This document shows, one piece after another, positions 4,732-14,113 of a DNA stretch of 64,000 nt (the stretch's first letter is position 1; each line of letters begins with the position of its first letter). Source of the stretch: Microbacterium paraoxydans (GTDB lineage Bacteria; Actinomycetota; Actinomycetes; Actinomycetales; Microbacteriaceae); the NCBI RefSeq assembly GCF_019056515.1, contig NZ_CP064873.1, forward strand, positions 1,612,001 through 1,676,000, given 5' to 3'. Position numbers and translations under genes: made by a program. Under the pieces are notes generated by a model. It searched no databases and was not told where the DNA came from. It worked only from the letters and a program-made list of their open reading frames with translations.

Positions 4732-4787
4732 GAAATGTCGAGTGTGGCGTCACGGGCGGGAAGCCGTGGTGCGTGAGGAGACTATTC

Positions 4788-6734
4788 GTGCGTTTCGTAT
4801 GGGCCGTCGTGGCCTTCGTGCTGGCTGCCGTGCTGATCGGTGCGGGGATCGCCCAACGCACCGTCTTCGTCGGTCCTTCGTCCCAGGAGGCCCGCGTCGA
4901 CATCGAGGAGCCCGCTCCGTACGTGCTGATGGACGGCGATGTGCTCCGGATGAACCCGGGCGCGCAGAAGGTGCTGATCCGCGGCGAGGGCGAGATCTTC
5001 GCGAGCTACGGCCGTACGGCCGACATGGAGGCGTGGCTCTCTGACGCGGAGTACAACCACGTCTCGGTCGGCGACGACGACGAGCTCCTCGTCGAGCACG
5101 TCGCGGCCCCGGACCCGGAGGAGTCGGACGAGACCCCCGCGCCGGACGACTCCGAGACCCCCGCGCCGGAGGACGAGGAGTCCGCCGAGCCCGCCGGCCG
5201 CAATCCGGCCGGGTCGGACCTGTGGCTCGACTCCTTCAGCGAGAAGAACTTCCTCTCCACCGACACCATGCAGCTCCCCGAGGGGACGAGCGTGCTGATC
5301 GCCTACGACGGCACCGAGGACGCGCCGGACGACATCGTCGTCTCCTGGCCGCTGGACACGCGGACCCCGCTCGCCGGTCCGCTCATGGTCGCGGGCGGAG
5401 TCGTGCTGCTGGTGGGGCTCGTGCTCTACGTGCTCGCGATCCGCCACCAGCGCCGTGGCCGCGGCCCGCGCCGGAAGGGGCCGGGGCCGCTGCCCACGAC
5501 CCAGCCGATCGACGTGGCGGCGCTCCCGCCGTCCGAGCGGGAGGCGCTGGAGGCCGCGGACGGCACGGAGCCGAAGACTCCGGCGCGGAAGGACGACGCG
5601 GAGGACGCGGAGGTCGTCGACGAGAAGCCCACGGAGGGGAAGAACGCCATGCAGAGTGTGCGCCCGCGCCGTCGTCGGCGTCTGCTCGTCGTGCCCGCGC
5701 TCGGTCTGACCGCGGTGCTGGCCGCCGGCTGCAGCGCCGAGTCCTGGCCGGAGTTCGGGGATGCCTCTGCGTCGCCGTCGCCGAGCCCCACCGTCATCGC
5801 GCCCGACAACCAGAAACCCCCGGCGGTCACCGAGACGCAGGCCGACCGCATCCTCGGGGAGATCTCCGAGACGCTGGTGAAGGCCGACGAGGAGAAGGAC
5901 CTCGATCTCGCGGCGACCCGCCTGGACGGGACCGCTTTGGCGACCCGCACCACCGACTACGCCCTGCGGGAGAAGCTGCCCGACCGCCCCGCACCGGCGG
6001 CGATCCCGACCGACGACGTCGAGGTCGTGCTTCCGGAGGCGACCGACCGCTGGCCGCGCACCGTCCTCATGCTCTCGAAGAGCACCGGCGACGACACCGT
6101 GCCGCCCGTGGTCCTCACCATGACGCAGGCGGACCCCTGGTCCAACTACAAGGTGACGAACATGGCCGAGATGTCCGCCGACGCGGCCTTCCCCGAGGTG
6201 GCGGCGAGCTGGCTCGGCACCTCCCTCGTCCCCGCGGACTCCGCGTTCCTGTCGGTGCCCCCGGACGAGGTCGCCGCCGCCTTCGCGGACGTCGTCGACA
6301 ACGGGGAGAAGAGCGAGTCGTACGGGCAGTTCGACGAGCTGGCACTCAACCTCGCGAAGTCGATCACCGACAGCCGCCAGAGCCTGGTGCAGGGGCTGGC
6401 CGACGCCGGTGCCGCGGAGACCTCGACGGCGGCCTTCGACATGACGCCGACGGAGGAGGACCCGGTCTCCCTGACGACCCTGGACAGCGGTGCCATCGTC
6501 GCCGTCTCCGTGCTGGACGTCGAGACGATCACTCCCACCTCGTCCGATGTGGTGATCCGCTTCGGCGACAACGAGGAGGCCAAGGCCCTCACCGGTGCCA
6601 ACGAGTCCGCCAAGGGCGCCGAGACGACCTATGCATTCCAGCTGTTCTTCGCCGTCCCCTCGCAGGGATCGAGCGACCCGATCCGGCTCCTGGCGTCGCG
6701 CCAGGACCTCGTGTCCGTGAAGGTGATCAAGTGA
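4788..6734 (+). CDS. membrane protein fused in frame to a lipoprotein (DUF8094-like)
   Basis: A 648-codon frame with two recognisable halves. Residues 1-287 form a bitopic envelope protein: an N-terminal membrane helix (VWAVVAFVLAAVLIGAG), an extracytoplasmic domain with an acidic Glu/Asp/Pro stretch, a second helix near 195-218 and a charged cytosolic tail. From residue 288 there is a complete lipoprotein precursor: MQSVRPRRRRR, a hydrophobic run, lipobox LAAGC with Cys at 315, a Ser/Pro linker, then a ~330-residue domain I do not recognise. GTG 4788 is chosen because GAGGAG lies 7 bases upstream. The internal ATG 5649 also has a strong ribosome site, so the second half may be translated separately. 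Confidence 0.75.
   Translation: MRFVWAVVAFVLAAVLIGAGIAQRTVFVGPSSQEARVDIEEPAPYVLMDGDVLRMNPGAQKVLIRGEGEIFASYGRTADMEAWLSDAEYNHVSVGDDDELLVEHVAAPDPEESDETPAPDDSETPAPEDEESAEPAGRNPAGSDLWLDSFSEKNFLSTDTMQLPEGTSVLIAYDGTEDAPDDIVVSWPLDTRTPLAGPLMVAGGVVLLVGLVLYVLAIRHQRRGRGPRRKGPGPLPTTQPIDVAALPPSEREALEAADGTEPKTPARKDDAEDAEVVDEKPTEGKNAMQSVRPRRRRRLLVVPALGLTAVLAAGCSAESWPEFGDASASPSPSPTVIAPDNQKPPAVTETQADRILGEISETLVKADEEKDLDLAATRLDGTALATRTTDYALREKLPDRPAPAAIPTDDVEVVLPEATDRWPRTVLMLSKSTGDDTVPPVVLTMTQADPWSNYKVTNMAEMSADAAFPEVAASWLGTSLVPADSAFLSVPPDEVAAAFADVVDNGEKSESYGQFDELALNLAKSITDSRQSLVQGLADAGAAETSTAAFDMTPTEEDPVSLTTLDSGAIVAVSVLDVETITPTSSDVVIRFGDNEEAKALTGANESAKGAETTYAFQLFFAVPSQGSSDPIRLLASRQDLVSVKVIK
5649..6734 (+). CDS. 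putative internally initiated lipoprotein (nested, same frame)
   Basis: ATG 5649 is preceded by GGAGGGGA at 5633-5640, an ideal ribosome site 8 bases away. It starts a 361-residue protein with a textbook type II signal: five arginines, a hydrophobic core LLVVPALGLTAVL, and lipobox LAAGC with Cys28. The mature part begins with a Ser/Pro-rich spacer, followed by a mixed alpha/beta domain of unknown function (possibly DUF8094). No stop codon separates it from the upstream membrane-protein codons. It may therefore be an independent product of a nested start, or the C-terminal half of one polypeptide. Its stop overlaps the next gene's GTG by 4 bases. Confidence 0.55.
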   Translation: MQSVRPRRRRRLLVVPALGLTAVLAAGCSAESWPEFGDASASPSPSPTVIAPDNQKPPAVTETQADRILGEISETLVKADEEKDLDLAATRLDGTALATRTTDYALREKLPDRPAPAAIPTDDVEVVLPEATDRWPRTVLMLSKSTGDDTVPPVVLTMTQADPWSNYKVTNMAEMSADAAFPEVAASWLGTSLVPADSAFLSVPPDEVAAAFADVVDNGEKSESYGQFDELALNLAKSITDSRQSLVQGLADAGAAETSTAAFDMTPTEEDPVSLTTLDSGAIVAVSVLDVETITPTSSDVVIRFGDNEEAKALTGANESAKGAETTYAFQLFFAVPSQGSSDPIRLLASRQDLVSVKVIK

Positions 6735-7669
6735 GCGAGATCTCTCCCGCCGCCCTGCGCGGTGCCGTCGACCTGTCCAGCCTGCGCCATCGCCCCTCCG
6801 CCCCGGCAGGCGGCTCGGCGACCGCTCCCGCCGGATCTCCGGTCACGGATGTCGTCGTCGACGCGACCGATGAGAACTTCGGCCAGGTGCTCGAGCTCTC
6901 CCGCACGGTGCCGGTCGTCGTCGACCTCTGGGCCGAGTGGTGCGGGCCGTGCAAGCAGCTGAGCCCGATCATCGAGAAGGTCACCCGTGAGCTGGGCGGA
7001 CGCGTCCTCCTCGCCAAGGTCGACGTCGACGCCAACCCGCAGCTCGCGCAGAGCTTCCGCGCGCAGTCGATCCCGATGGTCGTCGCCCTCATCGCCGGTC
7101 AGCCGGTCCCCATGTTCACGGGCGCGGTTCCGGAGCAGCAGGTCCGCGAGGTGTTCGCGCAGCTGCTGCAGGTGGCGGCGCAGAACGGGGTGTCCGGGTC
7201 GCTGCCCGTCGGAGAGGGCGAGGCGGCCGAGGCCGCCGCCCCGGCCGAGCCCGAGCTGCCGCCGCTGCACGCGGAGGCCTTCGCCGCGATCGAGCGCGGG
7301 GACTACCGTGCCGCCATCACCGCCTACGAGAAGGCCCTCGCCGAGAACCCGCGCGACGAGGACGCCATCGCCGGTCTCGGTCAGGTCCGCCTGCTCGACC
7401 GCGTGCAGGGGCTCGACCTCCAGGCCGCGCGCGCAGCAGCCGCCGCCGCACCGCAGGATGTGCAGGCGCAGTTCGACGTCGCCGATCTGGACCTCGCCGG
7501 CGGACACGTCGACGACGCGTTCGGCCGTCTGCTCGACCTGTTCGCGCAGCTGCCGTCGGATCAGCGGACGCCCGTGCGCGAGCGCCTCGTCGAGCTCTTC
7601 GGTCTCATCGGAGCCGGAGACCCGCGCGTGATCGCGGCCCGCAACCGGCTCTCCTCGCTGCTCTTCTGA
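6731..7669 (+). CDS. thioredoxin-TPR protein (YbbN/CnoX-like)
   Basis: A 312-residue cytosolic protein. A thioredoxin domain spans about residues 35-145, with the active-site motif WCGPCK near 67-72 and the cis-proline loop SIPMVVALI. It is followed by an Ala/Glu-rich linker and a C-terminal TPR-like helical region (AFAAIERGDYRAAITAYEKA). In the YbbN/CnoX family the protein acts as a redox-linked holdase. Unlike E. coli CnoX, both active-site cysteines are present, so oxidoreductase activity is possible. The GTG start overlaps the upstream stop (GTGA), so it is translated with the lipoprotein frame. Confidence 0.9.
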   Translation: MSEISPAALRGAVDLSSLRHRPSAPAGGSATAPAGSPVTDVVVDATDENFGQVLELSRTVPVVVDLWAEWCGPCKQLSPIIEKVTRELGGRVLLAKVDVDANPQLAQSFRAQSIPMVVALIAGQPVPMFTGAVPEQQVREVFAQLLQVAAQNGVSGSLPVGEGEAAEAAAPAEPELPPLHAEAFAAIERGDYRAAITAYEKALAENPRDEDAIAGLGQVRLLDRVQGLDLQAARAAAAAAPQDVQAQFDVADLDLAGGHVDDAFGRLLDLFAQLPSDQRTPVRERLVELFGLIGAGDPRVIAARNRLSSLLF

Positions 7670-7708: not shown

Positions 7709-9910
7709 TCAGCCGTTGTTCACGGTGGGGACGTGCGGCTCCGGCTGATAGCGGAGCCACAGCGTGGACAGGGCCGGCAGCGTGATCGAGGCCGTCGCCG
7801 TGCCCCCGTCTCCGGATTCGGCGACCACCATCCCGAGGTTGCCGGAACCGCGCCCGCCGTAGACGTCGGCATCGGAGTTCAGGATCTCCTGCCAGACGCC
7901 GGGGCGCGGCAATCCCAGGCGGTACCCGGTGCGCTCCACGCCGGCGAAGTTGCTGACCACGACCAGACGGCCGCCGTGCGCGTCCCGCCGTTCGAAGGCG
8001 ATCACGGACGGATCCCAGCTCGGTGCCCCGAGCCGCGTGAACCCCGAGCCGTCGCTGTCGCGCTCCCAGAGCGGTGCCTGCGCCCGGTACACCCCGTTCA
8101 TCGCGGCGACGAAGTCCTGGAGCTGGGCGTGCGAGGGCTGGTCGCGGAGCCACCAGTCCAGCTCGCGCCCCTCCGACCACTCGGCGAGCTGTCCGAACTC
8201 CTGACCCATGAACAGCAGCTTCTTGCCCGGATGCCCCCACATGTACGCGAGGTAGGCGCGGACGTTCGCGAGCTTGTGCCAGTGGTCGCCGGGCATCTTC
8301 GACAGCAGGCTGCCCTTGCCGTGCACGACCTCGTCGTGACTGATCGGCAGCACGTAGTTCTCGCCGAACGCGTAGACGAATGAGAAGGTCATCTCGCCCT
8401 CGTGGTGCGCCCGGTACATCGGGTCTCTGCCGATGTACTGCAGCGAGTCGTTCATCCACCCCATGTTCCACTTGAACCCGAACCCGAGGCCGGCGTGATC
8501 CGTCGGCGCGGTGACACCCGGGAAGCTCGTGGACTCCTCGGCGATCATGAGGATCCCGGGGTGCAGCCGGTAGGCCGTGGCGTTGACCTCCTGGAGGAAG
8601 CGGATCGCCTCCAGGTTCTCGCGTCCGCCGTGGATGTTCGGCTCCCACTCACCCTCGCGACGCGAGTAGTCGAGGTAGAGCATCGAGGCGACGGCGTCGA
8701 CGCGCAGACCGTCGACGTGGAACTCCTCGAGCCAGTACAGCGCGTTCGCGACGAGGAAGCCGCGGACCTCGGGACGACCGTAGTCGAAGATGAGCGTGCC
8801 CCAGTCCTGGTGCTCTCCGCGCCGGGGGTCGGGGTGCTCGTACAGGGGCTGACCGTCGAAGCGGGCCAGCGCGAAGTCGTCCTTGGGGAAGTGTCCCGGC
8901 ACCCAATCCATGATCACGCCGATGCCGGCCTGGTGCAGGCGGTCGATGAGGTAGCGCAGGTCGTCGGGGGAGCCGTACCGGCTCGTCGGCGCGTAGTAGC
9001 CGCTGACCTGGTATCCCCAGGATCCGCCGAACGGATGCTCGGCGAGCGGCATGAACTCGACGTGAGTGAACCCCGTCTCCTGTACGTGCGCGATCAGTGG
9101 ATCCGCCATGTCGCGGTAGCCCAGGCCGCCCCGCCAGGAGCCGACGTGCACCTCGTACACCGCCAGCGGCTGCGCGACGGCATGCGTGGCGGCACGACGG
9201 GTCATCCACGCGCCGTCCTCCCAGACGTAGGACGACGCCGTCACGACGGAGGCGGTCTCCGGCGGCACCTGCGCCGCCAACGCCATCGGGTCGGCCTTGA
9301 GGATCCAGCTGCCGCTCCGCGTCCGGATCTCGAACTTGTAGCGGGTGCCGACGGGGAGGTCGGGGATGAAGAGCTCCCAGACGCCGCTCGCGCCGAGCGA
9401 GCGCATGGCGTGACTCTCACCGTTCCAGCCGTTGTGATCGCCCACCACACGGACGGCCGTGGCATCGGGCGCCCAGACGGCGAAGGACACGCCCTGCTCG
9501 TCGCCCTGCGTGCGGGGATGGGCTCCCAGCGCTTCCCACAGCCGCTCGTGCCGGCCTTCGGCGATCAGATGAAGGTCCAGGTCGCCGAGGGTCGGCGCGT
9601 GACGGTACGGGTCGCCCGCGACGCTCTCCTCCTCGCCGCGGTAGCGCGTCGCGAGGCGGTAGGGGAGCGGCGGTCCCGGATGCGTGCCCTCCCACACCCC
9701 GTGCGCGACGTGGGTGAGCGTCAGGCGGCTGCCGTCGTCGAAGACGGCCTCCACCGTCTCGGCGAGCGGACGGCGAGCCCGGATCACGGTGACAGTGCGA
9801 TCCGCCGCATCCTTCGCGGGGTGGGCGCCGAGCACGGCGTGCGGCGCGTGGTGCCGCCCTTCCGCCACGGCCTCCCAGTCGGCGTTCGCGGTGTCGTCGA
9901 TGCCGCTCAT
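7709..9910 (-). CDS. glgB: 1,4-alpha-glucan branching enzyme
   Basis: Introduces alpha-1,6 branches into glycogen. It is 733 residues, a normal length, with an N-terminal beta-sandwich region (HAVLGAHP), a central CBM48 and a GH13 barrel. Visible GH13 motifs include DWVPGHFPKDDFAL, the nucleophile in DGLRVDAVASM, the acid in MIAEEST and ISHDEVVHGKGSLL. The start ATG overlaps the glgE stop by 4 bases, so glgE and glgB are coupled. The gene is last in the glgX-glgE-glgB run. Confidence 0.97.
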   Translation of the reverse strand: MSGIDDTANADWEAVAEGRHHAPHAVLGAHPAKDAADRTVTVIRARRPLAETVEAVFDDGSRLTLTHVAHGVWEGTHPGPPLPYRLATRYRGEEESVAGDPYRHAPTLGDLDLHLIAEGRHERLWEALGAHPRTQGDEQGVSFAVWAPDATAVRVVGDHNGWNGESHAMRSLGASGVWELFIPDLPVGTRYKFEIRTRSGSWILKADPMALAAQVPPETASVVTASSYVWEDGAWMTRRAATHAVAQPLAVYEVHVGSWRGGLGYRDMADPLIAHVQETGFTHVEFMPLAEHPFGGSWGYQVSGYYAPTSRYGSPDDLRYLIDRLHQAGIGVIMDWVPGHFPKDDFALARFDGQPLYEHPDPRRGEHQDWGTLIFDYGRPEVRGFLVANALYWLEEFHVDGLRVDAVASMLYLDYSRREGEWEPNIHGGRENLEAIRFLQEVNATAYRLHPGILMIAEESTSFPGVTAPTDHAGLGFGFKWNMGWMNDSLQYIGRDPMYRAHHEGEMTFSFVYAFGENYVLPISHDEVVHGKGSLLSKMPGDHWHKLANVRAYLAYMWGHPGKKLLFMGQEFGQLAEWSEGRELDWWLRDQPSHAQLQDFVAAMNGVYRAQAPLWERDSDGSGFTRLGAPSWDPSVIAFERRDAHGGRLVVVSNFAGVERTGYRLGLPRPGVWQEILNSDADVYGGRGSGNLGMVVAESGDGGTATASITLPALSTLWLRYQPEPHVPTVNNG

Positions 9911-11976
9911 GCGCGCTCCCTCACCTTCAGGATGTGGACCGGCTCGGCAAAGGCGTCGAGCCGGACGTAGTTGTGATCGGTCCAGGTCCAGACGCTGCCC
10001 GTGAGCAGGTCCTCCACCTCGTAGCTCTCACCCAGGGGGACGCCCCAGCGTGTGGTGTCGAGATGGACGGTGGTCTCGCGCACCGAGTGCGGGTCGACGT
10101 TCGCGACGACGATGAGCGTGTCCGGCCGCCCGGTTCCGGTGAAGGCGGCGTCGAGATGCTTGCTGAACACGAGGATGGCGTCATCGTCGCTCCAGTGCAT
10201 CTCGAGGTTGCGCAGCTGCCGCAGGGCCGGATGCGCCGCGCGGATCTCGTTCAGCCGCCGCAGGAGCGGAGCCAGCGATTCCCCGCGTTCCTCGGCCCCC
10301 GCCCAGTCGCGGAACTTGTACTCGTACTTCTCGTTGTCGATGTTCTCCTCGGAACCCGGGCGGGCCACGTTCTCGATGAGTTCGTATCCCGCATACACGC
10401 CGTACACGGGGCCCGCGGTGGCAGCGATGCAGGCGCGGATCCGGTAGGCCGCGCGTCCGCCGAACTGGAGGTATTCGGTGAGGATGTCGTGCGTGTTGAC
10501 GAAGAGGTTCGGGCGCATGTAGTCGGCCGTCTCGTGGGAGATCGTCGTGAGGAACTCCTCCAGCTCCGCTTTGGTGTTGCGCCACGTGAAGTAGCTGTAG
10601 CTCTGTTGGAAGCCCACCGCGGCGAGCGCGCGCATCACCGCCGGTCGGGTGAACGCCTCGGCCAGGAAGATCACGTCGGGATCCGTCTCGTTCACCGTCG
10701 CGATCAGCCACTCCCAGAACTGCAGCGGCTTGGTGTGCGGGTTGTCCACGCGGAAGATCCGAACCCCCTCCGCCACCCAGTGCCGGACGATCCGGAGCAT
10801 CTCGGCGGCGATCCCCTCCGGGTCGTTGTCGAAGTTCAGCGGGTAGATGTCCTGGTACTTCTTCGGCGGGTTCTCGGCGTACGCGATCGTGCCGTCGGGG
10901 AGGGTGGTGAACCACTCCGGGTGGTCGCGCACCCAGGGGTGGTCGGGAGAGGCCTGCAGCGCGAGGTCGAGGGCGACCTCCAGTCCCTCCTTCCGCGCGG
11001 CCCGCACGAAGGCGCGGAAGTCCTGCGGGGTGCCGAGGTCAGGGTGGATCGCATCGTGCCCGCCCTCCGCCGCTCCGATGGCGTACGGCGAGCCCGGGTC
11101 CCCGGCCTCGGCGACGAGGGTGTTGTTGCGACCCTTGCGGTTGGTCGTGCCGATGGGATGCACGGGGACGAGGTAGATCACGTCGAAGCCCATCCTGGCG
11201 ACCTCGGGCAGGCGCTTCGCTGCAGTACGGAACGTGCCGCTGCGGACCGTTCCGTCCTTGAGGCGGCGGGCTCCCTCCGACCGCGGGAAGAACTCGTACC
11301 AGGCGCCGACTCCGGCGCGGGTGCGCTCCACGCGGAGGAGCTGCTCCGCGGAGGCGGAACGGAGCGTCGTGACGGGGCGATCGCGGAAGATCGCCGCGAG
11401 GTCGGGGTCCACGGCACGTTCGGCGGCGACGACGGGGTCGCCGGCCCGGAGTTCCTCCGCCCAGGTCCTGAGGCGCGTGCGCTGCGCTGCGGGGCGGTCC
11501 TTCTCGGCAGCCGCCCGTCGCAGGAGCTCGGCTCCGAGGGCGGCCATCACGGGGGCGTCCACCCCGGCGGCGATCTTCACGTGCGCGGCGTGTGCCCAGG
11601 TGGCGAAGTCGTCGGAGAACGCCTCGAAGCGATACCGCCAGAGGCCCTCCGCATCGAGGGCGATCTCCGCCTCCCAGCGATCGGTGCCGTCGGCGAGCGC
11701 CGTGAGCCGGTGCAGGCTCTCTTCGCCGGCCGGTGAGGTCAGTCGCACGTGCACGCCGATGAGGTCGTGCCCTTCGCGGAACGCCACGACGCGGAAGGGG
11801 ACGACCTCGCCTGCGAACGCCTTGGCGGGGAAGCCTCCCGGAACCACCGGCGTGCCGTCCAGCAGCGGGATCCGGGTGGTCCGCAGGGTTCCGGGCTGGT
11901 CGGCGTCGACGGCGCGCGTCGGGATCTGAACGGGGCTCCGCAGAGCCGTGGGTCGGGTTCCAGCACGAGCAGTCAC
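9907..11976 (-). CDS. glgE: alpha-1,4-glucan:maltose-1-phosphate maltosyltransferase
   Basis: Extends alpha-1,4-glucan using maltose-1-phosphate as donor. It is 689 residues. The N-terminal domain (VVPGGFPAKAFAGEVVPF) is typical of GlgE, and the GH13_3 barrel shows the nucleophile in FRVDNPHTKPLQFW and the acid in VIFLAEAFTRP. GTG 11974-11976 is the start: a TAGATT element lies exactly 6 bases upstream, predicting leaderless translation. TreS and Pep2, which usually supply maltose-1-phosphate, are not in this window, so the donor must come from elsewhere (TreS-Pep2 or GlgM). Confidence 0.95.
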   Translation of the reverse strand: MTARAGTRPTALRSPVQIPTRAVDADQPGTLRTTRIPLLDGTPVVPGGFPAKAFAGEVVPFRVVAFREGHDLIGVHVRLTSPAGEESLHRLTALADGTDRWEAEIALDAEGLWRYRFEAFSDDFATWAHAAHVKIAAGVDAPVMAALGAELLRRAAAEKDRPAAQRTRLRTWAEELRAGDPVVAAERAVDPDLAAIFRDRPVTTLRSASAEQLLRVERTRAGVGAWYEFFPRSEGARRLKDGTVRSGTFRTAAKRLPEVARMGFDVIYLVPVHPIGTTNRKGRNNTLVAEAGDPGSPYAIGAAEGGHDAIHPDLGTPQDFRAFVRAARKEGLEVALDLALQASPDHPWVRDHPEWFTTLPDGTIAYAENPPKKYQDIYPLNFDNDPEGIAAEMLRIVRHWVAEGVRIFRVDNPHTKPLQFWEWLIATVNETDPDVIFLAEAFTRPAVMRALAAVGFQQSYSYFTWRNTKAELEEFLTTISHETADYMRPNLFVNTHDILTEYLQFGGRAAYRIRACIAATAGPVYGVYAGYELIENVARPGSEENIDNEKYEYKFRDWAGAEERGESLAPLLRRLNEIRAAHPALRQLRNLEMHWSDDDAILVFSKHLDAAFTGTGRPDTLIVVANVDPHSVRETTVHLDTTRWGVPLGESYEVEDLLTGSVWTWTDHNYVRLDAFAEPVHILKVRERA

Positions 11977-11982
11977 ATGCCG

Positions 11983-11988
11983 AATCTA
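11983..11988 (-). promoter_or_regulatory. leaderless -10 element TAGATT for glgE
   Basis: TAGATT, then 6 bases, then GTG. This gives glgE-glgB a promoter separate from glgX, in the 64-base gap between glgX and glgE. Confidence 0.5.
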
Positions 11989-12040
11989 CCGCTCGGCCCT
12001 GTCGGAACCTACCGCTCGACCCCGGCGCCGAACCGTGCTA

Positions 12041-14113
12041 TCACTCCACCCGGAACAGGCGCATGGATGTGCCGGGGATCGGCAGCACGTCACCCGGAGC
12101 GTACGTCTCCTCGGCCTCCGACGGGCGCTCGTCGGCGCTCGACCAGAGGGAGACGAATCGGCTGGCACCCTCGATCTCCTCCGGGAGCCGCACGTCGATC
12201 GGCGCCTCCGTCCCGTGCACGATCAGGAGGATGCGGTTGGCAGGTTCCTTGTCCGGTGTGGAGGCGGCGACGTACTGCAGCGTGCGATTGCCGGGATCGG
12301 TCCACTGCCCCGGTTCCATGGTCGCACCGTCCTGGTCGTACCAGTCCATGACCGAGGCGTTCGGGATGTGCTCGCCGAGGCGCGCATACCGACTCGGCCG
12401 CAGCGCCGGATTCTCCTCGCGCAACCGGGCGAGGCGCGCGACGTGGGCCCGGAGGTCGTCCTGCCAAGGCTCGAACTCCCAGGAGAGCCAGGACAGCGGC
12501 GAGTCCTGCGCGTAGGCGTTGTTGTTGCCGCGCTGGCTCCGCCCCACCTCGTCCCCGGCGGTGAGCATCGGGATGCCGGCCGAGAGGAGGAGGGTGCCGA
12601 GCAGGTTGCGCATGGCCTTGCGCCGGGCGGTGAGGATCGCGGGATCGTCGGTCGGCCCCTCGACGCCGTGGTTGAACGAGCGGTTCAGGTCGGCGCCGTC
12701 GCGGTTGTGCTCGCCATTGGCCTCGTTGTGCTTGACGTCGTACGACACGAGGTCGTGCAGCGTGAACCCGTCGTGCGCCGTGACGAAGTTGATGCTCGCG
12801 AGGGGTCCGCGGTCCTCGCTGAAGGTGTTGGACGATCCGGCGAGCCGGGTGGCGAAGCCGCCGATGCCGACCGGCGCCGAGGCCCGTCGTGCGTAGTCGA
12901 TGTCGCTCAGCCAGAAGTTGCGCACGCGGTCTCGGTACCGGTCGTTCCACTCGTGCCACCCCGCAGGGAAGTTGCCCGTCTGCCAGCCGCCCAGTCCGAC
13001 GTCCCAGGGCTCCGCGATGAGCTTGGTGTCCGCGAGGACGGGGTCGGCGGCGATCGCCTGCAGCAGCGGATGATCCGGAGTGTAGGCGTGAGCGCCGTCG
13101 CGCGCGATCGCCGTCGCCAGGTCGAAGCGGAAGCCGTCGATCTGCATCTCCTCGGCCCAGTACCGGAGCGAGTCCAGCACCAGTCGTGCGCCCGCGTCGG
13201 TGGCCGTGTTGAGCGTGTTGCCGCATCCCGTGGTGTCGATGTAGACGCCCGCGTCGTCCTGTCGGTAGTACCGCGCGTTGTCGATACCGCGGAGACTGGA
13301 GCGCGGCCCGCCGATGCCTTCTTCCGACGTGTGGTTGTACACGACGTCGAGGATCACCTCGAGGCCGGCCTCATGCAGCAGACGCACCATGCCCTTGAAC
13401 TCGGCGATGATCGCCTCGGGGCCCCGTTTCCTGGCGTCTTCCGTCGCGTAGGCGGCGTGGGGCGTGAAGAAGTTCAGGGTGTTGTACCCCCAGTAGTTCG
13501 TCAGCCCCCGCTCCAGCAGCCGCGGCTCCGGGACGAAGGCGTGGACGGGGAGCAGCTCCACCGACGTCACCCCGAGCGTGCGGAGGTACGCGATCATGGC
13601 CGGATGCGCGAGGCCCGCGTAGGTGCCGTGCAGCGCGGGCGGGATGTCGGGGTGCCGCTTGGTCAGTCCCTTCAGGTGGCCCTCGTAGATCAGCGTCCGG
13701 TCGACGGGGATCCGCGGCTTCGTGGAGCCGCCCCAGTCGAAGCCGTCCTCGATGACCACGGCTCGCCATTCCTGGTAGCCGTGTCCCTGGGCGAGGCCTC
13801 GCGCATACGGGTCGAGGAGCAGCGTCTCCGGGTTGAACGTGTTGCCGGGCCCGTGCGGACCCTCGACGCGGAGCGCGTAGCGGACTCCGGGCTGCAGCAA
13901 CGGCGTCGTGACCTCCCAGACGCCTCCGGGCCGCCGTTCGAGCGGAGCCTGGTCGACGACCCAGTCGAGGTCCGTCGCGTCGAAGACGACGAGCTCGACG
14001 GCGGAGGCGTTCTGCGACCAGACCCGCAGTGTGCCGACACCGTCGTGCAGCCGGACGCCGAGGTTGTCGAGGATCGCCCCACCGGGCACGACGGAGTCGG
14101 GGGACGAAGACAT
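12041..14113 (-). CDS. glgX: glycogen debranching enzyme
   Basis: Isoamylase-type GH13_11 enzyme that trims alpha-1,6 branches of glycogen limit dextrins. It is 690 residues, with an N-terminal CBM48 (residues ~10-110) and a GH13 barrel. Motifs seen are DVVYNHTSEEG, the nucleophile in DGFRFDLATAIARDG, the acid in LIAEPWDVG and FVTAHDGFTLHDL. The ATG has a TAGGGT element 6 bases upstream. First gene of the alpha-glucan cluster, divergent from the cysteine desulfurase. Confidence 0.96.
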   Translation of the reverse strand: MSSSPDSVVPGGAILDNLGVRLHDGVGTLRVWSQNASAVELVVFDATDLDWVVDQAPLERRPGGVWEVTTPLLQPGVRYALRVEGPHGPGNTFNPETLLLDPYARGLAQGHGYQEWRAVVIEDGFDWGGSTKPRIPVDRTLIYEGHLKGLTKRHPDIPPALHGTYAGLAHPAMIAYLRTLGVTSVELLPVHAFVPEPRLLERGLTNYWGYNTLNFFTPHAAYATEDARKRGPEAIIAEFKGMVRLLHEAGLEVILDVVYNHTSEEGIGGPRSSLRGIDNARYYRQDDAGVYIDTTGCGNTLNTATDAGARLVLDSLRYWAEEMQIDGFRFDLATAIARDGAHAYTPDHPLLQAIAADPVLADTKLIAEPWDVGLGGWQTGNFPAGWHEWNDRYRDRVRNFWLSDIDYARRASAPVGIGGFATRLAGSSNTFSEDRGPLASINFVTAHDGFTLHDLVSYDVKHNEANGEHNRDGADLNRSFNHGVEGPTDDPAILTARRKAMRNLLGTLLLSAGIPMLTAGDEVGRSQRGNNNAYAQDSPLSWLSWEFEPWQDDLRAHVARLARLREENPALRPSRYARLGEHIPNASVMDWYDQDGATMEPGQWTDPGNRTLQYVAASTPDKEPANRILLIVHGTEAPIDVRLPEEIEGASRFVSLWSSADERPSEAEETYAPGDVLPIPGTSMRLFRVE

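Follow-up and report, generated by a model that had tools for sequence, protein, structure and literature searches.

Among the closest described systems is FbcH of Bradyrhizobium, a polyprotein in which cytochrome b and cytochrome c1 are encoded by one open reading frame and parted by signal peptidase I into two respiratory cytochromes. The locus analysed here resembles FbcH in that two proteins share one translated frame, in which an exported protein with an internal signal comes after a membrane protein, and a cut between them is predicted. It differs in that most members carry a lipobox, in that the type of signal varies by lineage, and in that the products of FbcH are respiratory cytochromes. 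Ordinary lipoproteins offer a second comparison. Their signals, processed by Lgt and Lsp, are described as N-terminal (PMC8048626, PMC6952399), and the internal signal shares with them a basic n-region, a hydrophobic core and a lipobox with cysteine at +1, but unlike them it is preceded by about 290 residues of the chain and, once spent, would remain on another protein. As lipoprotein signals are described as N-terminal, lipoproteins inside polyproteins are easily missed, and in the titles and abstract openings that we searched we recognised no description of an internal lipobox or of a polyprotein cut by Lsp, a statement about those texts and not about everything in print. The third comparison is with sister families (e.g. 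Brachybacterium L181, the same locus as L154), which have a homologous N-half and lipoprotein, adjacent and in the same order, but as two frames, the stop of one overlapping the start of the other, which have a Shine-Dalgarno (SD) site and are probably translated in a coupled manner, with no fusion.

We analysed a window of 64,000 nucleotides of Microbacterium paraoxydans DNA, in which the frame that concerns us ends at a TGA at 6732-6734 (Table 1). The frame is open further upstream, as far as a GTG at 4773, but we favour the start at 4788 because GAGGAG lies at 4775-4780 and alignment A1 has the consensus start MRFxxAV. The sequence-only reading had described one frame with no stop between its halves, a codon 288 that is an ATG behind a ribosome-binding-like site, and a lipoprotein-type signal following a two-helix membrane protein. 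The sequence bears out each of these: the frame is uninterrupted from GTG to TGA, GGAGGGGA stands upstream of the ATG, and RRRRR (residues 294-298) precedes a stretch of 16 uncharged residues whose last four are LAAG, directly before Cys315 (codon 5730-5732), the sole cysteine among the 648 residues. Because of its overlap with the fused ORF, the downstream thioredoxin-TPR gene is probably on the same transcript. On the minus strand at 7709-14113 there are three long ORFs which, by eye from their translations, we take to be glycogen-metabolism-like (branching, GlgE-type and debranching).

Table 1. Features of the fused ORF and its surroundings, in window coordinates.
Feature	Coordinates	Strand	Basis or remark
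Fused ORF, 648 aa, proposed polyprotein	4788..6734	+	GTG start, TGA stop; homologues with the same layout
Transmembrane helix 1, residues 2-25	4791..4862	+	AlphaFold model
N-half beta-rich domain, residues 26-195	4863..5372	+	AlphaFold model; presumed extracytoplasmic, membrane side inferred
Transmembrane helix 2, residues 196-224	5373..5459	+	AlphaFold model
Linker, residues 225-298, RRRRR at end	5460..5681	+	Low pLDDT, purifying selection in relatives, charge; presumed cytosolic
GGAGGGGA, Shine-Dalgarno-like	5633..5640	+	L179, the closest named relative, has not kept it
Internal ATG, Met288	5649..5651	+	Only part of the closest clade has Met here
Internal signal peptide core, uncharged and hydrophobic, residues 299-314	5682..5729	+	
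Lipobox AAGC, residues 312-315	5721..5732	+	Predicted cut Gly314/Cys315
C-domain, residues 316-648	5733..6731	+	Presumed extracytoplasmic; weak NCBIfam lipo_SCO2278 match
NTF2-like/ARC6-like subdomain, residues 345-465	5820..6182	+	
Thioredoxin-TPR gene, downstream	6731..7669	+	Its GTG overlaps the TGA of the fused ORF (GTGA)

The join is conserved. Of 299 genomes searched across the family, 296 gave a match, and in 181 fetched loci, the best-listed matches with one or few per genus and thus a non-random draw, both halves were checked by profiles. They lie in one stop-free frame at 147 loci, or 144 unique fused ORFs once three identical copies are removed. Where relatives might have carried a stop, near 5640, the same open frame runs through in 125/125 Microbacteriaceae loci (122 without identical copies), which include 19 named Microbacterium loci and 106 from further Microbacteriaceae genomes. 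The join is also found at all 14 loci of a Micrococcaceae-type family (f6, Arthrobacter) and at eight of nine loci of a Brevibacterium-type family (f7), the ninth being broken by a contig end; these two families are named after the closest database names, from one member each, and the fetched loci represent 14 of 27 (f6) and 9 of 34 (f7) matching genomes among the matches listed. Fused proteins of the same length are present among public database proteins.

The n-region, h-region and lipobox cysteine of a lipoprotein signal are present in 122 of the 144 unique fused ORFs, that of M. paraoxydans included. The exception to the lipoprotein pattern is position: the core starts at residue 299 of 648 and not at the N-terminus, and no internal start is conserved. 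In the 122, the cysteine lies 15-20 residues after the last charged residue (13-18 in 28 of 31 separate lipoproteins), and in 117 it is the only cysteine of the protein. The M. paraoxydans site misses the strict pattern [LV][ASTVI][GAS]C, as given in PMC8048626, because residue -3 is alanine. With [LVI][ASTVI][GAS]C, 71 of the 122 lipoboxes match and 51 miss, the M. paraoxydans ORF being among the misses. A looser, PROSITE-like pattern is matched by the Cys315 site and by all 122 lipobox-bearing proteins. With 125/125 Microbacteriaceae loci joined, 122/122 lipoboxes fitting this pattern and 117 proteins having no other cysteine, the combination of join and lipobox is more than chance. Above the Pfam cut-off the genome has four matches of signal peptidase II type, and it has one match to Lgt. 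These four are at G000:C1:2128735, 110719, 2863186 and 104813.

The other 22 fused ORFs have no cysteine at all. They comprise all 14 fetched f6 loci and eight in two neighbouring Microbacteriaceae groups and, as few lineages are involved, do not represent 22 independent events. A strict AxA, like that of signal peptidase I sites, is found in 18 of the 22 (absent from L123, L124, L127 and L132) and in 28 of the 122 lipobox forms. Among 1000 shuffles the mean was 11.5 and the highest count 17, so that none reached 18, although these shuffles ignore kinship and the window tested was picked after the sequences had been seen. The looser [AVSTG]xA is uninformative: it occurs in 22/22 cysteine-less and 61/122 lipobox forms, and 51 of 1000 shuffles reach 22 because the windows are rich in alanine. 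Database proteins scored in the same way, all of them close relatives, gave a lipobox in 120/120 of the best 120 from the Microbacterium search and in 74 of 76 from the Brevibacterium search, where the other two were too short for scoring. Among the best 120 from the Arthrobacter search, 119 had AxA and the remaining one had a cysteine and was scored as lipobox. The internal hydrophobic segment still ends in a predicted cleavage motif, the cysteine or else usually AxA.

Elsewhere in the order, 33 loci do not have the halves in one frame. Both genes could be located in 31 separate pairs from 10 family codes (the junction counts leave out L181, a copy of L154, L109, where the N-half was not found, and L140, at a contig end). 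In these pairs the stop of the first gene overlaps the start of the next, with ATGA in 25, GTGA in five and CTGATG in one, and every lipoprotein start has an SD match of four or more bases before it. These junctions and SD matches suggest that the ancestor was probably a translationally coupled gene pair. A change of frame probably fused this pair once or twice, according to a tree made by a quick method from the C-domain only of 150 of the 181 loci. The split and fused states need two changes on this tree because the outgroups are poorly resolved, and a single fusion event seems likely. Lipobox and AxA need at least three changes. The lipobox is probably the older state, since all 31 separate lipoproteins carry a lipobox-like match. 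A class-wide search with a stretch of the outgroup N-half matched in nine of 98 genomes, which says little on fusions outside the order. In the outgroup loci L152-L154 the N-terminus of the separate lipoprotein is longer, with an extra methionine ahead of the signal, unlike in the other outgroups.

The linker is the least constrained part of the fused ORF, with a pooled dN/dS over 32 disjoint Microbacteriaceae pairs of 0.27, compared with 0.18 in both the N-half and the signal and 0.14 in the C-half. A value of 0.27 indicates that it is nonetheless selected as protein. Constraint is far weaker in the M. paraoxydans ORF's own pair, L001-L179, where pN/pS is 0.62 for the linker and 0.91 for the signal. 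Linker length ranges from 18 to 86 in Microbacteriaceae, in frame throughout. Over the 15 residues that lead up to the hydrophobic core the net charge averages +4.8 in Microbacteriaceae, +5.8 in f7 and +2.1 in f6, as expected of a cytosolic n-region, and some members have a linker that is negatively charged overall, with a minimum of -8. The mostly positive linker and the AlphaFold model fit a topology in which the two helices would place the N-half domain outside, the linker would be cytosolic and the third segment would export what follows. The linkers of several Microbacteriaceae (e.g. L043, L049 and L056) contain short recurrent stretches, NAIESG and KGVISS among them, possibly a contact site.

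We propose that the primary product is a single polyprotein, encoded by two fused, formerly overlapping genes and cut at its internal signal by signal peptidase II, or by signal peptidase I in some lineages, and give this reading a probability of about 0.78. Helices 1 and 2 would enter the membrane while the linker stays cytosolic, and the third hydrophobic segment would then act as a lipoprotein signal peptide that exports the C-domain. Lgt would add diacylglyceryl to Cys315 and signal peptidase II would cleave before it. One product would be a membrane protein some 314 residues long that retains the spent signal as a third helix, the other a separate lipoprotein some 334 residues long. Signal peptidase I probably makes the cut in f6 and the two Microbacteriaceae groups, whose internal signals no longer have the cysteine.

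The same data bear on three other explanations. If the lipoprotein were made by internal initiation at Met288, from its own ribosome-binding site, the fused product would be incidental or absent. Around M. paraoxydans the site looks suitable: GGAGGGGA is well spaced before the ATG with an SD score of 5, methionine occupies the same place in many close relatives, several of them Microbacterium (SD scores of 7 in L007 and 5 in L168), and in other families the separate genes have SD sites ahead of their starts. But L163 and L166 have asparagine for this methionine, and the score is only 3 in L179. Across the 144 unique fused ORFs such starts are at the background level of the C-halves of the same genes: an in-frame ATG occurs in the pre-signal window of 43 (30%, background 26%), an ATG with an SD score of at least 4 in the linker window of nine (6%, background 6%), and any ATG, GTG or TTG with such a score in 24 (17%, background 23%). 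Between helix 2 and the signal, 33 of the 144 have no ATG, GTG or TTG, all eight f7 genes included. As SD-led linker starts are no commoner than background, internal initiation was rejected as a general mechanism, and selection on the upstream linker as protein also argues against it; we regard it as improbable, though some additional internal-start product could be made in the M. paraoxydans clade. The sequence-only reading had left two choices, one polypeptide with a lipobox in its middle that might be cleaved, or two proteins through internal initiation. The join in three families and the selected linker favour the former, while the latter, as a general rule, did not hold.

An undivided protein, with the internal segment left uncut as a third transmembrane helix and its cysteine lipidated or not, would suit the orientation of the segment, and protein-level selection on the linker is what a real tether would show. 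We nevertheless think it just as doubtful as internal initiation. It does not account for a cysteine that is the sole one in nearly all lipobox forms and keeps its distance from the last charge, nor for cysteine-less lineages that are richer in AxA than the lipobox forms or the shuffles. AlphaFold confidence, which is high in the first two helices but drops to block means of 40-50 in segment 3, counts slightly against it. A sequencing or assembly fault that had removed a stop, or a wrongly extended frame, was rejected with near certainty, as 122 distinct Microbacteriaceae sequences and the database proteins of the same length have the same frame.

The C-domain scored 39.1 bits (E 4.1e-10) against NCBIfam lipo_SCO2278 (NF053531), below the curated cut-off of 210 bits, and the SCO2278-family lipoprotein is at most a distant relative. 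The NTF2-like fold matches structurally over most of its domain, which may point to binding more than catalysis. Foldseek gave no match at E <= 0.001, and a search of solved structures by sequence gave two matches at E of about 1. The N-half aligned with CDC50-type chains, in most cases with a low rmsd across 61-75 residues and, at an rmsd of 9, across as many as 149; we did not accept this as kinship. Because the two halves lie side by side throughout the order and later became one gene, it can be argued that they work together on the outer face of the membrane.

In public records PF26366 is annotated on all of the best 120 Microbacterium database matches, and on most matches in one and a minority in the other of the Arthrobacter and Brevibacterium searches; it gave no match in the Pfam copy that we searched. 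Many of the Microbacterium fused proteins are named 'glycosyl transferase' and some PF26366 proteins DUF8094, and from these names we infer that PF26366 is DUF8094. The M. paraoxydans protein is like the PF26366 proteins in being fused and of the same length, but unlike the name no glycosyltransferase domain was found in either half (Pfam E 0.1, NCBIfam E 1) or in the whole protein (Pfam E 1). We therefore reject this function and consider the proteins misnamed.

It seems fairly likely, if a little less so than the reading of the M. paraoxydans locus itself, that in three families of Actinobacteria a single chain comprises a membrane protein and its exported partner, with signal peptidases serving as maturation proteases, signal peptidase II at an internal lipobox in most, where the spent signal becomes a lasting helix, and signal peptidase I in at least two lineages. 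If so, Lgt and Lsp accept substrates preceded by some 300 extra residues and two helices. Through a peptidase that otherwise removes signals, one gene would yield two proteins at a fixed 1:1 ratio, where the sister families have overlapping genes. Lineages that have exchanged lipobox and AxA would then offer a natural experiment on the need for a lipid anchor.
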